This document shows positions 2,769-19,511 of a stretch of DNA of 36,870 bases, piece after piece. Below the pieces are notes generated by a model. It ran no database searches, was not told the origin of the DNA, and saw only the letters and a list, made by a program, of their open reading frames with translations. The DNA is from a virus: the IMG/VR virus record IMGVR_UViG_3300044691_000537, positions 1 to 36,870 of that record, one strand, 5' to 3'. The position numbers were made by a program, and so were the translations under genes. Position 1 is the first letter of the stretch. Every line of letters begins with the position of its first letter.

Positions 2769-2917
2769 ACCTTGAACGTCGAAAACCCCGCGACGGTGTA
2801 ATGTCCATCGTCAGAATCGCAAATCATCCGCTGTTCTTTTTCTTGTCGAACGCAGAACCATATCCCACCGTGTGTGTCGGTGTATTCGCCTGTGGTGAAT
2901 ACTGGATACGGCTTCAC
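2747..2917 (-). CDS. Small hypothetical protein, 56 aa
   Basis: A GTG start at 2917 overlaps the TGA of the preceding gene, and the frame runs to a stop inside the primase start region. The product begins MKPYPVFTTGEYTDTHGGIW and has two cysteines. It is a small, aromatic-rich protein of beta-type composition. Overlaps at both ends indicate translational coupling. No family is recognised. Confidence 0.55.
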   Translation of the reverse strand: MKPYPVFTTGEYTDTHGGIWFCVRQEKEQRMICDSDDGHYTVAGFSTFKVWNWKKN

Positions 2918-3066
2918 CTGAACTTCCCCTCTCTTACGTCGTCAACCAAATCAATCTGCCACAGCAGTTCGGTAATCGACATGGCGTTGATACGCTCGTC
3001 TATTTCCTTTTCGGAAAGACCTTGCCCGCAATTGATTTGGTCGCGTATCGCTTCAAGATATCCCAT
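2914..3066 (-). CDS. Small hypothetical protein, 50 aa
   Basis: The ATG at 3066 overlaps the stop of the DUF6511 gene (TGATG). The product begins MGYLEAIRDQINCGQGLSEK and looks helical and charged, with the segment MSITELLWQIDLVDDVREG. It is placed tightly in the leftward operon. No function can be inferred. Confidence 0.55.
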   Translation of the reverse strand: MGYLEAIRDQINCGQGLSEKEIDERINAMSITELLWQIDLVDDVREGKFR

Positions 3067-3386
3067 CACGACACCATCTCCCCAAAAACCCGTTTCATAT
3101 TATCCTCGTACCCACCCAAAAATTTCGCGAAAAAACACAGAAACGCGGCCTGATCCAACTCGGCTAGGTCGGTGGTGCCGATCGAGTCCAGATACTGGCC
3201 CGCAGCTTCGCCACCCTTTTGCAAGGATTCGGTTTCGTATATGTCGAAAGACTTCATATCGGCTCCAATGAATTGCGAGCAATGACGGCAATACCACTTG
3301 ATTGGGTGAGACCTACTGGCCTGAAACCCTATATTATCGTGTCTGCGCTTGCATACGCGGCAGGTGCCTACGGGGTTAAGTGTCAC
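3066..3386 (-). CDS. DUF6511-like phage protein with N-terminal zinc finger
   Basis: The 106-residue product has an N-terminal CRVC...CRHC zinc-knuckle pair (about residues 9-37). It is followed by a helical region containing GGEAAGQYLDSIGTTDLAEL and FAKFLGGYEDNMKR, which matches the DUF6511 pattern common in Rhizobiales phages. The function of that family is unknown. The paired cysteines suggest zinc and possibly nucleic-acid or protein binding. It overlaps the genes on both sides by a few bases. Confidence 0.7.
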   Translation of the reverse strand: MTLNPVGTCRVCKRRHDNIGFQASRSHPIKWYCRHCSQFIGADMKSFDIYETESLQKGGEAAGQYLDSIGTTDLAELDQAAFLCFFAKFLGGYEDNMKRVFGEMVS

Positions 3387-3595
3387 GGCTGGAATGGTGA
3401 GGTACGAGAGGACGTACGTTGCGGCACGTCCGGCGCTGCTGTCACAGCGGCGGGTCGCATCTTTACGACAGCGTCAATGATCAGTTTGATTTGATCCATG
3501 TCGCAGTACTGAATAACGGCTCGCATTAAATTGTGGTGATCGAACTCGATTTCTTCACGCGTTAGCGGCGTCATGTTGCCGTATGATTTGGTCAT
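3383..3595 (-). CDS. Hypothetical protein, 70 aa
   Basis: The ATG at 3595 follows a good GGAG ribosome binding site and the gene overlaps DUF6511 by four bases. The product is soluble and helical (REEIEFDHHNLMRAVIQYCD) with a Pro/Ala/Thr-rich tail. The composition is plausible for a real protein, but no family is recognised. Confidence 0.55.
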   Translation of the reverse strand: MTKSYGNMTPLTREEIEFDHHNLMRAVIQYCDMDQIKLIIDAVVKMRPAAVTAAPDVPQRTSSRTSPFQP

Positions 3596-3608
3596 TGCGT
3601 CGACTCCT

Positions 3609-3725
3609 TCATTGAAATAATACTACGAGCCACACAGCTAGAGCGAAATAAGCGACGCCGAAGTACACAGCAGCGCCACGCGGTGTGAAAAACCAATTAC
3701 GAATTCGTTGCAATTCGATCTTCAT
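3609..3725 (-). CDS. Small single-pass membrane protein, 38 aa
   Basis: An ATG at 3725 opens a 38-residue frame with a basic amphipathic start (MKIELQRIRNWFFTPRGAA) and one clear transmembrane segment (YFGVAYFALAVWLVVLF) that ends the protein. It overlaps the end of the upstream gene by 29 bases. Tiny inner-membrane proteins are frequent in phage early operons; the role is unknown. Confidence 0.55.
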   Translation of the reverse strand: MKIELQRIRNWFFTPRGAAVYFGVAYFALAVWLVVLFQ

Positions 3726-4154: not shown

Positions 4155-4249
4155 CAATAAACCCACCATGCCACAGCGGCACCAGTCTGCAGCGCCTTGC
4201 ATCCAAGGAGGCAGATAACAACTGCACCAATCGCGTAGATAATTTTCAT
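4154..4249 (-). CDS. Tiny membrane or lipoprotein-like peptide, 31 aa
   Basis: An ATG at 4249 overlaps the methyltransferase stop (ATGA). The peptide begins MKIIYAIGAVVICLLGCKAL and ends VAWWVY. The LLGC resembles a lipobox, although the protein is only 31 residues. ATGA coupling and conserved operon spacing support translation. The role is unknown. Confidence 0.5.
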   Translation of the reverse strand: MKIIYAIGAVVICLLGCKALQTGAAVAWWVY

Positions 4250-5883
4250 GCGGCTACCCTCTGTGGTTCATTATCATTCGCGGGTGCTGCTAGCGCAGCA
4301 AACCGCGCTGAAATATCCTTGCGGTACTCGTCCTCCCGCTCAATCAAATAACAGTTGAAGCCTTCAAGGTACGCAGCCTCGCCAGTCGTACCGCTGCCAG
4401 CGAACGGGTCTAGGATCGTACCACCGGGCGGCGTAATGAGCCGGGCAAGGTAGCGCATGAGGGCGATGGGTTTGACGGTGGGGTGCTTGGAGTTGGCGCG
4501 ATCGGTTTTGTTCGCTTTGGCTTGGTAGAAGAAGCGTGCGGCTGAGCCGGAGTCGCTACCGTAGGTGCGACCGCTATCAACCGGCATGGTAAAGCTAGTG
4601 CCTTCCTTGTCTGCGTACCCGGCTTTCGTCTTGGCGTTCGTTGTGGTCTTAGGAAACGCCGCTACAACTTCGTCGCTGCCGTCTAAAATAACGTTAGCCG
4701 GGAATCGGCCGATCGCCGTGACAGATTCTTGCTTTTCGCCGATCTTATTCCATCCGTCGTCGTTGAGATTAGTATTCGATGTTAGACGCGGTGTGTAGGA
4801 GTGCGCTTCCGTCCCCACCCTACACCCATCAATATTAATCGCGCCCGTACCCCACTTGAGCACGTTAGCGGCCACGGTCTTTTCGCTGAGCGGCTTGCGG
4901 GCTAGAACGATTGGCTCATTCGCGGGCTTTAGCGCGGTGCCTAGTCCATCTAGAACAATCGGTTTGCCGCACCTTCCACAATTTTCCCATGCTCCGCTGA
5001 TTTGTGACTCCGGTTGCACGGCCACAGTTCCAGATTGTTTGGATCGTTGTTTAGCGGCTTGTGATCCAGATGGTGTACGCATTCCGTCCGAGTCAACGTC
5101 CGCCTTACTCTTCGAGCCATCACTAGACGATGCTCCATTATGTAGCCGTCCGCCCGTGCCATTGATTTCAAGTCCGGTGGACAACGAACGTATTTCACCG
5201 ACACGTAATTGCCCCTGCGATGACGGTACGTTGCCCCGCCTTTCCATGCCGGGTTCTTTGATAGGTGGAGCGCCTTTCGTGGATTCGGTCCGCAGCATTG
5301 GGCCGTGTGCACCTTGTTGCGACAACTCCGACTGCAGAACTTCCCCGCGTTTATCGCTAAGGTTGACGGTCTCCGATACATCGTCGCATTGCATCGATCG
5401 CAAACTACATTCGGACGACGATTCGGCATTACATTGGCAGAACGTATCATGAGCACTTATGTTGTGAGATTTTGGGAATCCTTGTCCATACAACCACTGA
5501 ATCATATCCCTGATTTCAAAGCCAGCGTCCTCTACAGCGCACGCCATGCGGTGATAGGTTCGTGTACCGCCGAACGAAAGCAAGTGACCACCGGGCTTTA
5601 GAACCCGCAAGCATTCGGCCCAAAACTTGTAGTCGTTGACGACCTCGCCGGAGTCCCACGACTTACCCATGAAGCCTTTTGAGGCTCGCATAAAAGCTTC
5701 GTTACCCTTGGCCGGTGCGGCGTTCGCACCACCGAAGCGCTTTACGATGCTAACCAGCGCATACGGACCATCAGTGAGCACGGCATCTATGCTATTGTCC
5801 GGTGCATCAATGAGCACCACGCGGTTATCGCCACCGAACAGAGTCACCCGGCCGTCTAGGAATTCGTCTACTGTGTAGGTCAT
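4246..5883 (-). CDS. Beta-class DNA methyltransferase with a large insert
   Basis: This 545-residue protein has the permuted order of beta-class N6-adenine/N4-cytosine methyltransferases. Motif IV comes first as TDGPY (residues 37-41, normally DPPY), followed by LRVLKPGGHLLSFGGTRTYH. The AdoMet-binding motif DPFAGSGTTGEAA lies near the C-terminus (about 492-504). Between FPKSHNIS (about residue 143) and GLGTALKPANEPIVLARKP (about 314) sits about 170 residues of low-complexity sequence, flanked by CQC and CGRC knuckles that could form one zinc ribbon. That insert also encodes an HNH nuclease in another frame. The C-terminus is an ssrA-like tail (ANDNEPQRVAA). The likely role is protection from restriction or epigenetic control; the target sequence is unknown. 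Confidence 0.88.
   Translation of the reverse strand: MTYTVDEFLDGRVTLFGGDNRVVLIDAPDNSIDAVLTDGPYALVSIVKRFGGANAAPAKGNEAFMRASKGFMGKSWDSGEVVNDYKFWAECLRVLKPGGHLLSFGGTRTYHRMACAVEDAGFEIRDMIQWLYGQGFPKSHNISAHDTFCQCNAESSSECSLRSMQCDDVSETVNLSDKRGEVLQSELSQQGAHGPMLRTESTKGAPPIKEPGMERRGNVPSSQGQLRVGEIRSLSTGLEINGTGGRLHNGASSSDGSKSKADVDSDGMRTPSGSQAAKQRSKQSGTVAVQPESQISGAWENCGRCGKPIVLDGLGTALKPANEPIVLARKPLSEKTVAANVLKWGTGAINIDGCRVGTEAHSYTPRLTSNTNLNDDGWNKIGEKQESVTAIGRFPANVILDGSDEVVAAFPKTTTNAKTKAGYADKEGTSFTMPVDSGRTYGSDSGSAARFFYQAKANKTDRANSKHPTVKPIALMRYLARLITPPGGTILDPFAGSGTTGEAAYLEGFNCYLIEREDEYRKDISARFAALAAPANDNEPQRVAA
4950..5456 (-). CDS. HNH endonuclease nested out of frame inside the methyltransferase gene
   Basis: This frame lies wholly inside the methyltransferase gene, same strand, different phase. 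The start is GTG at 5456 or an ATG two codons later. The 168-residue product has an N-terminal zinc finger (CDRC at 19-22, CSRSC at 41-45), an NPAWKGG motif, then GYIMEHRLVMARRV and CVHHLDHKPLNNDPNNLELW (about 104-145). This is the phage HNH_3 arrangement: EHR, HH-x-D, NN-x-P-x-NL, terminal His. It should cut DNA and may spread the insert as a homing endonuclease. The host frame over the same bases is Ser/Gly/Gln-rich and disordered-looking, so the conserved content lies in this frame. Confidence 0.85.
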   Translation of the reverse strand: MLMIRSANVMPNRRPNVVCDRCNATMYRRPSTLAINAGKFCSRSCRNKVHTAQCCGPNPRKALHLSKNPAWKGGATYRHRRGNYVSVKYVRCPPDLKSMARADGYIMEHRLVMARRVRRTLTRTECVHHLDHKPLNNDPNNLELWPCNRSHKSAEHGKIVEGAANRLF

Positions 5884-16741: not shown

Positions 16742-16887
16742 ACCCCCTAACCGGACGACGCCGCTACCGACAAGAGAACGGCAATCTAATTCTGCAGGTT
16801 GAGTTTTGCCACTGGGATGTAATTTGCTGGCGCTGTGATTGGCGGGACGCCGATTGTTATGACGTGATGGGGATTGAGTTGGCATAA
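16738..16887 (+). CDS. Small Cys/Trp-rich protein, 49 aa
   Basis: ATGA overlap with the previous gene and TAATG overlap with the helicase gene. The product contains CHWDVICWRCDWRDADCYD, so its cysteines could bind a metal. It is translated as part of a tight string of overlapping genes. The function is unknown. Confidence 0.5.
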   Translation: MNPLTGRRRYRQENGNLILQVEFCHWDVICWRCDWRDADCYDVMGIELA

Positions 16888-19511
16888 TGCGACACGAACC
16901 CCGCTACTACCAAGAGGAAGCTTATCAAGCGGCCCGCGACTACTGGAATGATGGTGGCGATCACGGGTTGATCGTCAAAGCTACCGGAACGGGCAAGAGT
17001 CTTCTACAAGCTATGCTTGCGCAGCGATTGATTGCTGAGTTTCCCGGATTCCGAATCGCTTGTGTGACGAATTCTCAGGAATTAATAGAACAAAATTACG
17101 GCGAGTTACTTGGTGAGTGGAGTTTCGCTCCCGCTGGGATTTTTAGCGCGAGTCTTGGTCGACGCGAATCGCAGGCACAGATTCTATTTTGTGGAATCGA
17201 TACCGTACATAACAAGACGCGGCAGATTGGGCACGTCGACCTGTTGATTGTTGACGAGGCGCACAGGATTTCGAAAGAAGCTACGACTCGTTACGCTCGC
17301 TTCATTCAGGCGTTGTTGGTAATCAATCCAGAAATGCGCATTCTTGGTTTGACTGCAACCGACTACCGAACAGACAGTGGCAGGTTAACGGAGGGCGACG
17401 AACGGCTGTTCAACGATGTCATCTATGAGTACGGCATTTCAGATGGCATTGCAGACGGATATCTGACTCCTCTCGTTTCTAAAGCGACAGTCACCGGCTT
17501 CGACATGACCGGCGTAAAGAAAAGCATGGGTGATTTTGCTAAAGGTGCCATGCAAAGCGCTGTAGACAAGACTGAGACAACGCGATCTGCTGTGGCGGAA
17601 ATCGTAGCGGCTGGCACTAATCGTAGATCGTGGCTTGCGTTCTGTGCTGGTGTTGAACACGCCGGGCACGTACGCGATGAAATTCGATCGCATGGTATAA
17701 CGTGTGAAATGATAACTGGCGACAAGAAGGTGACGCCTAGCCACCTACGCCGGAAATATATCGAGGATTTCAAGTCTGGCAAAATCCGCTGCCTCACAAA
17801 TAACAGTGTGCTCACCACTGGCTTTAACGCGCCCGGTATCGACCTAATAGCCGGGTTGCGCCCTACCCTTTCGCCCGGCCTTCTAGTCCAAATGGCAGGC
17901 CGTGGGACGCGTAACGTTTACGCAAAGGGAATGCCGTTAGACACCGTAGAACAGCGCTTGGCGGCTATTGCTGCCGGTCCTAAGCCTAACTGCATTGCAG
18001 AGGGCCAACGCGTACTAACAGACGTTGGATTGGTTACGATTGAGAACATAACTAAATCAATGAAGGTGTGGGATGGCAACAACTTTGTCTCCCATGATGG
18101 CATAATTTTTAAAGGAATGCAGACTGTTGTTAGCTACGCAGGACTCACCGCTACAGCCGATCATAACGTGTGGACCAAAGAAGGTTGGAAGACCTTTGGG
18201 CGGTGTGCCAGCGAACAAACTGCCATCGCAATTACCGGAATTGGCCGGAAAAATATTCAACAATCTGATGGTAGTTACCGGTGCAGTAGAGCGGAACAAT
18301 CGCGCACGAATATTGGTAGAGTGCACGAGATGCCACGAGCAATCGTATCGCGACTATTCGAGTCTGATAAAATCACAGGCTGGCTGCAGAGCTTGCGGAA
18401 ATCCAAGAGCAGCGCCGCTGTGGTTGGTCCGTCGCGCCAGTTCCGCGAAGTACCGTTGCGAGAATCCGAACGATCAGGCGTACGAGAGATACGGCAAGAG
18501 AGGTATTCAGTTCAAGTTCGAAAGTCCCACCGCGATGGCGGTATGGGTACAAGAGAACTTGGGGCTTCATCAAGAATTGGAATTGGATCGAATAGAAAAC
18601 GATCTTCATTACGAGGCTGGAAATCTAAGATATTCGACTCGCTCTCAAAATCAATCTCATACGCGCTCACAACGGTTGAACGCGCAATTACATCTATTTC
18701 GCCTCAACTATCCGAACGTTCTATACGCGGACGACACAATGAGACACTTCTTTGCGAAAAAAATGACCGCGAAGGAAATAGAGGACAGATATTACAATCT
18801 GAAATCTTACAAACCAAAAGGCCTGTGTGGGACATCTGTAACGCCGGACCCTTACATCGTTTCACTTGCGAAGGGCTGTTAGTTTCCAATTGTCTTTATT
18901 TAGACTTTGCTGGCAACATCATGCGTCACGGGCCGATTGATGCAATCACGCCGCGCAAGCCGGGTGAAGGTACAGGCGAAGCTCCCGTTAAGGAGTGCGA
19001 ACAATGCCGTTCGCTAGTGCATATCAGTCTTCGGATATGCCCAGACTGCGGCTTCGTTTTCCCCGTCAACGAGAAGCCTAAGCATTCGGCCACGTCTGCA
19101 GCCGTTCCGATTCTAAGCACAGAAGCCCCTAAGTGGCTCAACGTCCAAAGCCGCAAGTTCTACTACCACGAAAACGCAGAGGGCAGCGAAAGCGTCAGAG
19201 TAGATTTCCTAGCCAATTTCAACAGCTACAAACTTTGGCTAAGCGTGAGGAAAGCCAAGAACCGCTGTGACAAATTCTGGCGCGATCACGTCGGAAGAGA
19301 GCCGTACCCGGCCGATGTTGAAGAGTGGTTGTCGCGCTGTGAGAACGAACTAAGAGCAACGGCGCAAATCCAAGTACGGCCGAAAGGCAAGTTCTGGGAA
19401 ATCGTCGGGATAAAACCGGCTGAGCAGCATGTTGTCGTGCCTGCTGCTACGCAGCGGGCAGTGCCGCCAAGGCAAGTGAAGCACCTAATAGAAGACGACA
19501 TACCTTTTTGA
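16887..19511 (+). CDS. SF2 DEAH helicase (RadD/COG1061-like) interrupted by an intein
   Basis: The precursor is 874 residues. The helicase half shows Walker A KATGTGKSLL (S38), DEAH (123-126), motif III LGLTATDYR, motif V VLTTGFNAPGID and motif VI QMAGRGTR. Residue 369 starts a 300-residue intein, after which the sequence resumes with CLYLDFAGNIMRHGPIDAI. Helicases of this family have that string uninterrupted (CLVLDFAGN..RHGP). A zinc ribbon (CEQC...CPDCGF) and a C-terminal domain follow. The mature protein would be 574 residues, normal for the family. It probably unwinds forked or branched DNA in recombination-dependent replication. Confidence 0.9.
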   Translation: MRHEPRYYQEEAYQAARDYWNDGGDHGLIVKATGTGKSLLQAMLAQRLIAEFPGFRIACVTNSQELIEQNYGELLGEWSFAPAGIFSASLGRRESQAQILFCGIDTVHNKTRQIGHVDLLIVDEAHRISKEATTRYARFIQALLVINPEMRILGLTATDYRTDSGRLTEGDERLFNDVIYEYGISDGIADGYLTPLVSKATVTGFDMTGVKKSMGDFAKGAMQSAVDKTETTRSAVAEIVAAGTNRRSWLAFCAGVEHAGHVRDEIRSHGITCEMITGDKKVTPSHLRRKYIEDFKSGKIRCLTNNSVLTTGFNAPGIDLIAGLRPTLSPGLLVQMAGRGTRNVYAKGMPLDTVEQRLAAIAAGPKPNCIAEGQRVLTDVGLVTIENITKSMKVWDGNNFVSHDGIIFKGMQTVVSYAGLTATADHNVWTKEGWKTFGRCASEQTAIAITGIGRKNIQQSDGSYRCSRAEQSRTNIGRVHEMPRAIVSRLFESDKITGWLQSLRKSKSSAAVVGPSRQFREVPLRESERSGVREIRQERYSVQVRKSHRDGGMGTRELGASSRIGIGSNRKRSSLRGWKSKIFDSLSKSISYALTTVERAITSISPQLSERSIRGRHNETLLCEKNDREGNRGQILQSEILQTKRPVWDICNAGPLHRFTCEGLLVSNCLYLDFAGNIMRHGPIDAITPRKPGEGTGEAPVKECEQCRSLVHISLRICPDCGFVFPVNEKPKHSATSAAVPILSTEAPKWLNVQSRKFYYHENAEGSESVRVDFLANFNSYKLWLSVRKAKNRCDKFWRDHVGREPYPADVEEWLSRCENELRATAQIQVRPKGKFWEIVGIKPAEQHVVVPAATQRAVPPRQVKHLIEDDIPF
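17991..18890 (+). mobile_element. Intein in the helicase gene (300 aa)
   Basis: The insert starts at Cys (TGC 17991) with a block A-like CIAEGQRVLTDVGLVTIENI. It contains a block B-like GLTATADHNVWTKEGW and ends with a block F/G-like VWDICNAGPLHRFTCEGLLV-SN before Cys 669 (TGT 18891). The N-terminal Cys, terminal Asn and +1 Cys are the splicing residues; the penultimate residue is Ser rather than His. The interior in the intein frame is Arg/Ser-rich with no endonuclease motif. The endonuclease is instead in the +1 frame (18241-18882). Splicing at this conserved motif would restore the helicase. Confidence 0.88.
18241..18882 (+). CDS. HNH-type homing endonuclease nested out of frame inside the intein
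   Basis: This frame is +1 relative to the helicase and lies wholly inside the intein, ending eight bases before its last codon. From a TTG at 18241 (alternative ATG 18268) it gives about 213 residues. It opens with a GKIFNNLMVV...ARILVEC zinc-binding region (CTRC, CRAC). A KYRCENPNDQAYERYGKRGI motif follows, then LDRIENDLHYEAGNLRYSTR. This order is typical of phage HNH homing endonucleases (tandem Cys knuckles, NP...AY..YG.RGI, LDRI.N...Y..GN.R..T). It would give the intein mobility. The weak start suggests translation by internal initiation or frameshifting. Confidence 0.83.
   Translation: MAGKIFNNLMVVTGAVERNNRARILVECTRCHEQSYRDYSSLIKSQAGCRACGNPRAAPLWLVRRASSAKYRCENPNDQAYERYGKRGIQFKFESPTAMAVWVQENLGLHQELELDRIENDLHYEAGNLRYSTRSQNQSHTRSQRLNAQLHLFRLNYPNVLYADDTMRHFFAKKMTAKEIEDRYYNLKSYKPKGLCGTSVTPDPYIVSLAKGC

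Follow-up and report, generated by a model that had tools for sequence, protein, structure and literature searches.

Whether an intein can carry its homing endonuclease as a gene of its own, in a reading frame other than that of the splicing domain, is the question raised by a helicase gene in the stretch of viral DNA analysed here, the 36,870 nucleotides of IMG/VR record IMGVR_UViG_3300044691_000537 (hereafter the window). On the evidence set out below we consider it highly probable that the window holds a mobile homing intein within which an endonuclease gene is nested in the +1 frame and translated on its own. Elsewhere the window (1-36,870) carries primase, Cas4-type exonuclease, Sak4-like annealing protein, integrase and ParB-like genes, and scans of it for tRNAs and repeats found nothing.

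The helicase open reading frame (16,887-19,511, plus strand) encodes 874 amino acids without a stop across 17,991-18,890, and subtraction of the 300-residue intein encoded there leaves a RadD-like helicase of 574 amino acids. The N-extein (16,887-17,990, plus strand) belongs to a RadD/ResIII-type phage helicase (Pfam ResIII 1.4e-21, phrog_16 2.1e-76, RadD 1.8e-65), and the C-extein (18,891-19,511, plus strand), placed by the reading frame and by intein-free orthologues, opens with the Cys at position +1 in the string CLYLDFAGN. The intein itself (17,991-18,890, plus strand) extends from Cys1 to Asn300; it starts with the motifs CIAEGQRVLTD...VWDG...YAGLTATADH, has T55, D57 and H58 in block B and ends with VWDICNAGPLHRFTCEGLLVSN directly before the +1 Cys. 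C1, T55, H58 and N300 are invariant among 44 intein sequences. The AlphaFold model of this frame is confident (pLDDT above 90) at both ends, namely in the N-terminal splicing region of residues 1-82 (17,991-18,236, plus strand; pLDDT 93-97) and the C-terminal splicing region of residues 271-300 (18,801-18,890, plus strand; 91-96), with a disordered middle at residues 83-270 (18,237-18,800, plus strand; mostly 40-60). In Foldseek the top matches of the predicted fold were RecA, DnaB and DnaE inteins (probability 1.00), the Mtu RecA mini-intein being the best structural match. By sequence and predicted structure the insertion thus has the features of an intein: an in-frame position at a conserved site, the splicing motifs and the Hint fold; it would be expected to splice. 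Pfam and NCBIfam profiles named neither an intein nor an HNH protein in the window, and both identifications are based on PHROGs, motifs and the intein fold.

The nested gene lies in the +1 frame of the same strand at 18,127-18,882 and encodes 251 amino acids from a proposed TTG start, the frame being open already from 18,106. Its product matched phrog_3377 (E 5.6e-16) and phrog_374 (E 1.1e-14), contains two CxxC pairs, YGKRGI and DRIENDLHYEAGN, and is predicted by this profile membership to be an HNH-family endonuclease; the stop codon ends 8 nt short of the intein end. These searches of both translations bear out a sequence-only reading of the locus, which had placed intein splicing motifs at these ends of the helicase-frame insertion, had seen the extein resume at a conserved helicase string and had assigned the endonuclease to a +1 frame closing eight bases before the intein does. 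Both PHROG families were matched by all 46 HNH members aligned, and related HNH families carry endonuclease annotation. The HNH motif has Arg instead of its first His in 46 of 46 members (DRI, not DHI), with D154 and N166 conserved, and for the HNH-frame model (mean pLDDT 84) neither Foldseek nor VIA-align returned a clear HNH structural match. Because of this substitution and the lack of a clear structural match the catalytic activity is uncertain, and DNA cleavage by the protein is presumed.

To place the locus among its relatives, 249 fetched loci and the window were classified with profiles. An open intein with an HNH profile in +1 was found in 184 loci, which reduce to 112 distinct elements at 90% nucleotide identity, and 108 of these have an HNH reading frame of at least 192 amino acids. 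Of the loci that were retrieved with the intein query and confirmed in the intein frame, 69 carry the HNH in +1 and 10 are short mini-inteins without HNH; an in-frame HNH was not among them. The distance from the HNH stop to the intein end is exactly 8 nt, the value of the window, in about half of the elements. Neither of the two findings that the sequence-only reading had named as speaking against it turned up: an in-frame fusion of the HNH was absent from the relatives, all 108 elements sharing the +1 register, and a broken +1 frame beside a preserved intein domain does not occur, both frames being open in the relatives. The 108 elements derive from isolates, genomes and metagenomes, and the organisms named in genome records with the +1 arrangement include Firmicutes, Actinobacteria, Acidobacteria and Alphaproteobacteria. 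The overlap is a genuine and widespread arrangement of a probably mobile element, found across phages of many bacteria. A few loci fit the scheme poorly: L003 has a broken intein frame, and L177, L086 and L087 have two intein profiles in different frames. The L003 element (2,862-3,628), closely related to that of the window, has an intein frame disrupted by stops and a frame shift and is either a decayed copy or a sequence error. In L086 (2,471-4,190) and L087 (487-2,206) an HNH reading frame lies upstream of a polymerase reading frame that starts, in a different frame, with the intein C-terminal block, which may represent a split intein whose halves flank a free HNH gene.

The two frames were then compared for stops and for selection. 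With the HNH protein of the window fixed and synonymous codons shuffled, a mean of 13.1 intein-frame stops is expected, and with the intein protein fixed 5.7 HNH-frame stops; none is observed in either frame (p about 0.001-0.002), and the third frame has 12. Across the 108 elements, about 366 HNH-frame stops are expected under intein-only constraint and 0 occur, and about 1,093 intein-frame stops are expected under HNH-only constraint and again 0 occur, a zero that is partly built in by the selection of 'open' elements, although only four intein loci had been excluded for stops or shifts; the third frame has 1,134 stops. In 26 disjoint pairs of relatives the intein-frame omega was 0.15 (0.10-0.21) in the N-terminal block (codons 1-35) and 0.23 (0.15-0.34) in the C-terminal block, while in the middle overlap it was 1.08 (0.91-1.23) as against 0.13 (0.11-0.16) for the HNH frame. 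Block-wise omega and stop counts together indicate that the HNH protein is under purifying selection in the overlap, that the intein-frame middle drifts neutrally under selection against stops only, and that the splicing blocks are selected in the intein frame. The description of the middle as filler in the sequence-only reading is therefore upheld, by its disorder in the model and by the omega in relatives, whereas the joint constraint on both frames expected there is only partly borne out: it applies where the HNH C-terminus underlies the C-terminal splicing block, but the filler in the middle is unconstrained except for stops.

As to mobility, the intein-free helicase loci L252-L255, which represent two distinct sequences around the junction, share about 69-71% nucleotide identity with the window and are continuous exactly at the junction. 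The 30 bases directly upstream of it are unusually conserved, 27-28 of them being identical to the window, and neighbouring stretches lie at 63-81%. Host genes of the 108 elements are RadD-type helicases, one gene left unnamed by Pfam whose junction reads CIDYAD, and family A DNA polymerases; the polymerases are hit at many positions, and the single polymerase site LA|CGY holds 57 of the 108 elements. Two mini-inteins, L152 and L158, keep an initial portion of the HNH in +1, as would be expected after loss of the nuclease. A comparison of intein and extein identities found no near-identical inteins in clearly different exteins, thus no direct support for recent transfer, and we infer homing of the window element. 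In Rhizobium phage RHph_TM3_3_14B a free HNH gene (L256, 3,171-4,004) lies directly upstream of an intein-less helicase homologous to the window extein; it was considered as a relative of the nested HNH and rejected as unrelated.

It is conceivable, if rather unlikely, that the HNH protein no longer acts as a homing endonuclease and has taken another DNA-related role or persists as a binding protein that has lost catalysis. An Arg that invariably replaces the first His of the motif and the lack of a structural match to active HNH enzymes would fit such a protein, but its strong conservation (omega 0.13), its location inside inteins at many sites, the existence of intein-free alleles, and the annotation of related HNH families as endonucleases favour a nuclease that still serves homing.

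The start of the nested gene bears on how this nuclease would be made. Within the intein segment [RK]EV(I/L)xY[DEA]G of most relatives, the nucleotides form a Shine-Dalgarno sequence (AAGGAGGT in the clearest cases) and, after 8 nt, a +1-frame ATG. The TAT codon that creates this ATG appears in 71 of the 92 cases, with 38 expected from extein codon usage. A Shine-Dalgarno of at least 5 nt ahead of a start codon was present in 87 of the 108 elements, compared with 40 expected and a maximum of 50 in 200 synonymous shuffles. Other relatives have ACG at the usual start position and an ATG 12 nt upstream behind AAAGGAG. The window matches neither pattern cleanly; its candidate Shine-Dalgarno, AAAGGA at 18,111-18,116 (plus strand), is weak, has stronger equivalents in relatives and stands 10 nt before the TTG at 18,127. 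A start at the conserved codon of alignment column 91 (..[ML]VGxxFG) was rejected, as it has no Shine-Dalgarno sequence, while column 48, or the ATG 12 nt upstream, does. On these sequence patterns internal initiation of the HNH is well supported for the family and no more than plausible for the window's own copy, and the HNH is presumably translated. Hence the separation of nuclease expression from splicing proposed by the earlier reading is sustained by the nested ribosome-binding site of the relatives, but finds a weak counterpart in the window with its TTG start.

Intragenic Shine-Dalgarno sequences can promote frameshifting too. The HNH might in that case be produced by programmed +1 frameshifting, as a fusion to the N-terminal part of the intein, and the absence of a strong start in the window would agree with this route; we regard it as improbable, since in most relatives a start codon is properly spaced after the Shine-Dalgarno sequence and favoured by codon choice, and many members have +1-frame stops upstream of the nested start.

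Even less probable is that the insertion is removed as an intron, or is retained in the host protein like the ShiLan domain, with vestigial intein motifs. In its favour, non-splicing out-of-frame HNH insertions have been published (PMC11855218) and one is present elsewhere in the window. Against it stand the confident intein fold, the catalytic positions invariant in 44 sequences, the low intein omega of both splicing blocks, the open host frame and an Rfam scan of the window that gave no match above the gathering score, a result with which an undescribed intron type would still be compatible. Finally, a sequencing or assembly frameshift hiding an in-frame HNH fusion can practically be dismissed, for although a compensating pair of indels in one contig would look alike, the same +1 register recurs in 108 distinct elements with no in-frame version and the selection pattern follows both frames.

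We therefore return to an intein with a nested, independently translated nuclease, which would work as follows. Ribosomes would read the helicase frame straight through the nested gene, and the N- and C-terminal intein pieces would fold into a splicing domain, excise themselves and join the helicase, the middle of roughly 190 amino acids being tolerated as filler. Other ribosomes would initiate within the intein coding region and produce a free HNH protein. Its targets would be helicase genes that lack the intein, cut close to the junction, and repair of the cut would copy in the whole element. As no in-frame version was found, such an element most likely originated through the entry of an HNH gene, complete with its start, into the loop of a mini-intein.

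The same plan is seen outside the window family. In L202 (1-2,619 with 1,679-2,389) a DNA polymerase contains two inteins, of which one is a mini-intein and the second has a different HNH in +1. The HNH is instead in +2 in the DNA polymerase inteins of Jerseyvirus/Dhillonvirus (L250, 1,094-4,282; L251, 1,160-4,264), among them those of Sodalis phage SO-1 and Salmonella phage EnJE6, and +2 is also the register in Vibrio phage 97.13 and an Erwinia locus. The SO-1 HNH matches 166 phage records, many of them of cultured phages. Gene annotation nearly always misses the nested nuclease: in the five gene tables examined that cover an overlap of this kind, from phages of Streptococcus, Gardnerella and Salmonella, the polymerase is the sole entry there, the HNH is missing from the table of EnJE6, and in SO-1 the HNH is annotated as gp39 inside gp38 and labelled a self-splicing intron product. 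Counting the HNH in +1 of the window family, the different HNH in +1 of the second L202 intein and the HNH in +2 of the Jerseyvirus, Vibrio and Erwinia inteins, we see an evenly balanced case for a large, so far undescribed class of mobile inteins whose endonuclease is a nested, independently translated gene in another frame, a plan that would have arisen more than once.

The minus strand of the window holds a further overlap, in which a DNA methyltransferase reading frame (4,246-5,883) covers a second HNH gene in +1 (4,950-5,456, 168 amino acids, phrog_20891, E 9.1e-16). No intein motifs were noticed in the methyltransferase, and this HNH is related to the methylase HNH of Mycobacterium phages Mantra and Starcevich, that is, to the ShiLan type. 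Among 34 related viral loci, 32 have the HNH gene lying over a long host reading frame, in the same +1 register throughout, and in Mantra the register is +2.

If the proposal holds, endonuclease genes could enter inteins in free form instead of as fused domains, the host frame having to avoid stops and otherwise drifting. Splicing and homing, usually treated as one protein, would here be separated, and inteins would have a route to gain or lose endonucleases, since the loss of a gene that lies in another frame leaves the splicing domain intact; L152 and L158 resemble that outcome. The elements would also form an unusually clean natural system of overlapping genes, in which the evolution of an overlap becomes measurable because one frame is under strict protein constraint and the other needs only to avoid stops. 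The mechanism is testable because the +2 versions occur in those 166 sequenced phage records, and for annotation the overlap means that nuclease genes remain hidden.

In the open literature we found no description of an intein with an out-of-frame endonuclease, two works lying outside that scope, Gosselin et al. (bioRxiv 2025.01.02.630785) and Gorbalenya 1998 ('Non-canonical inteins'), which PMC11855218 cites for overlapping reading frames. The nearest arrangement in that literature is the ShiLan domain, in which an HNH is encoded out of frame within a phage methylase; the authors found neither intein nor intron features and no ribosome-binding site for the HNH, and the insertion is taken to remain in the methylase (PMC11855218). 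Like the window element, ShiLan and the Pacc40 gp60 insertion leave the host frame open and encode the HNH in another frame, and their disjunct distribution, suggestive of homing, is a further likeness (PMC11855218). A ShiLan-type insertion, however, has no splicing domain in the host frame, whereas the HNH of the window is surrounded by a full intein splicing domain with the splicing fold and has relatives with a nested ribosome-binding site. With canonical inteins such as PI-SceI and Mtu RecA PI-MtuI the window element shares the splicing fold, Cys1, the block B His, the terminal Asn and the +1 Cys, but in the canonical full-length form the endonuclease is a domain fused in frame between the splicing blocks and here it is a separate protein in another frame. 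The phage DNA polymerase mini-inteins of APSE-1 and Shewanella phage SFCi1 share the N-terminal motifs (44% and 54% identity over the first 68 amino acids), a match limited to the splicing part. The Jerseyvirus/Dhillonvirus polymerase inteins (EnJE6, SO-1) resemble the window in having the HNH in another frame and differ from its family in the +2 register, the HNH subtype and a distantly related intein; the plan recurs there separately. A nuclease gene nested in a self-removing element is also found in group I introns whose homing endonuclease gene is internal or overlapping, but the window element would be removed at the protein level, which requires an uninterrupted host frame across the nuclease gene.
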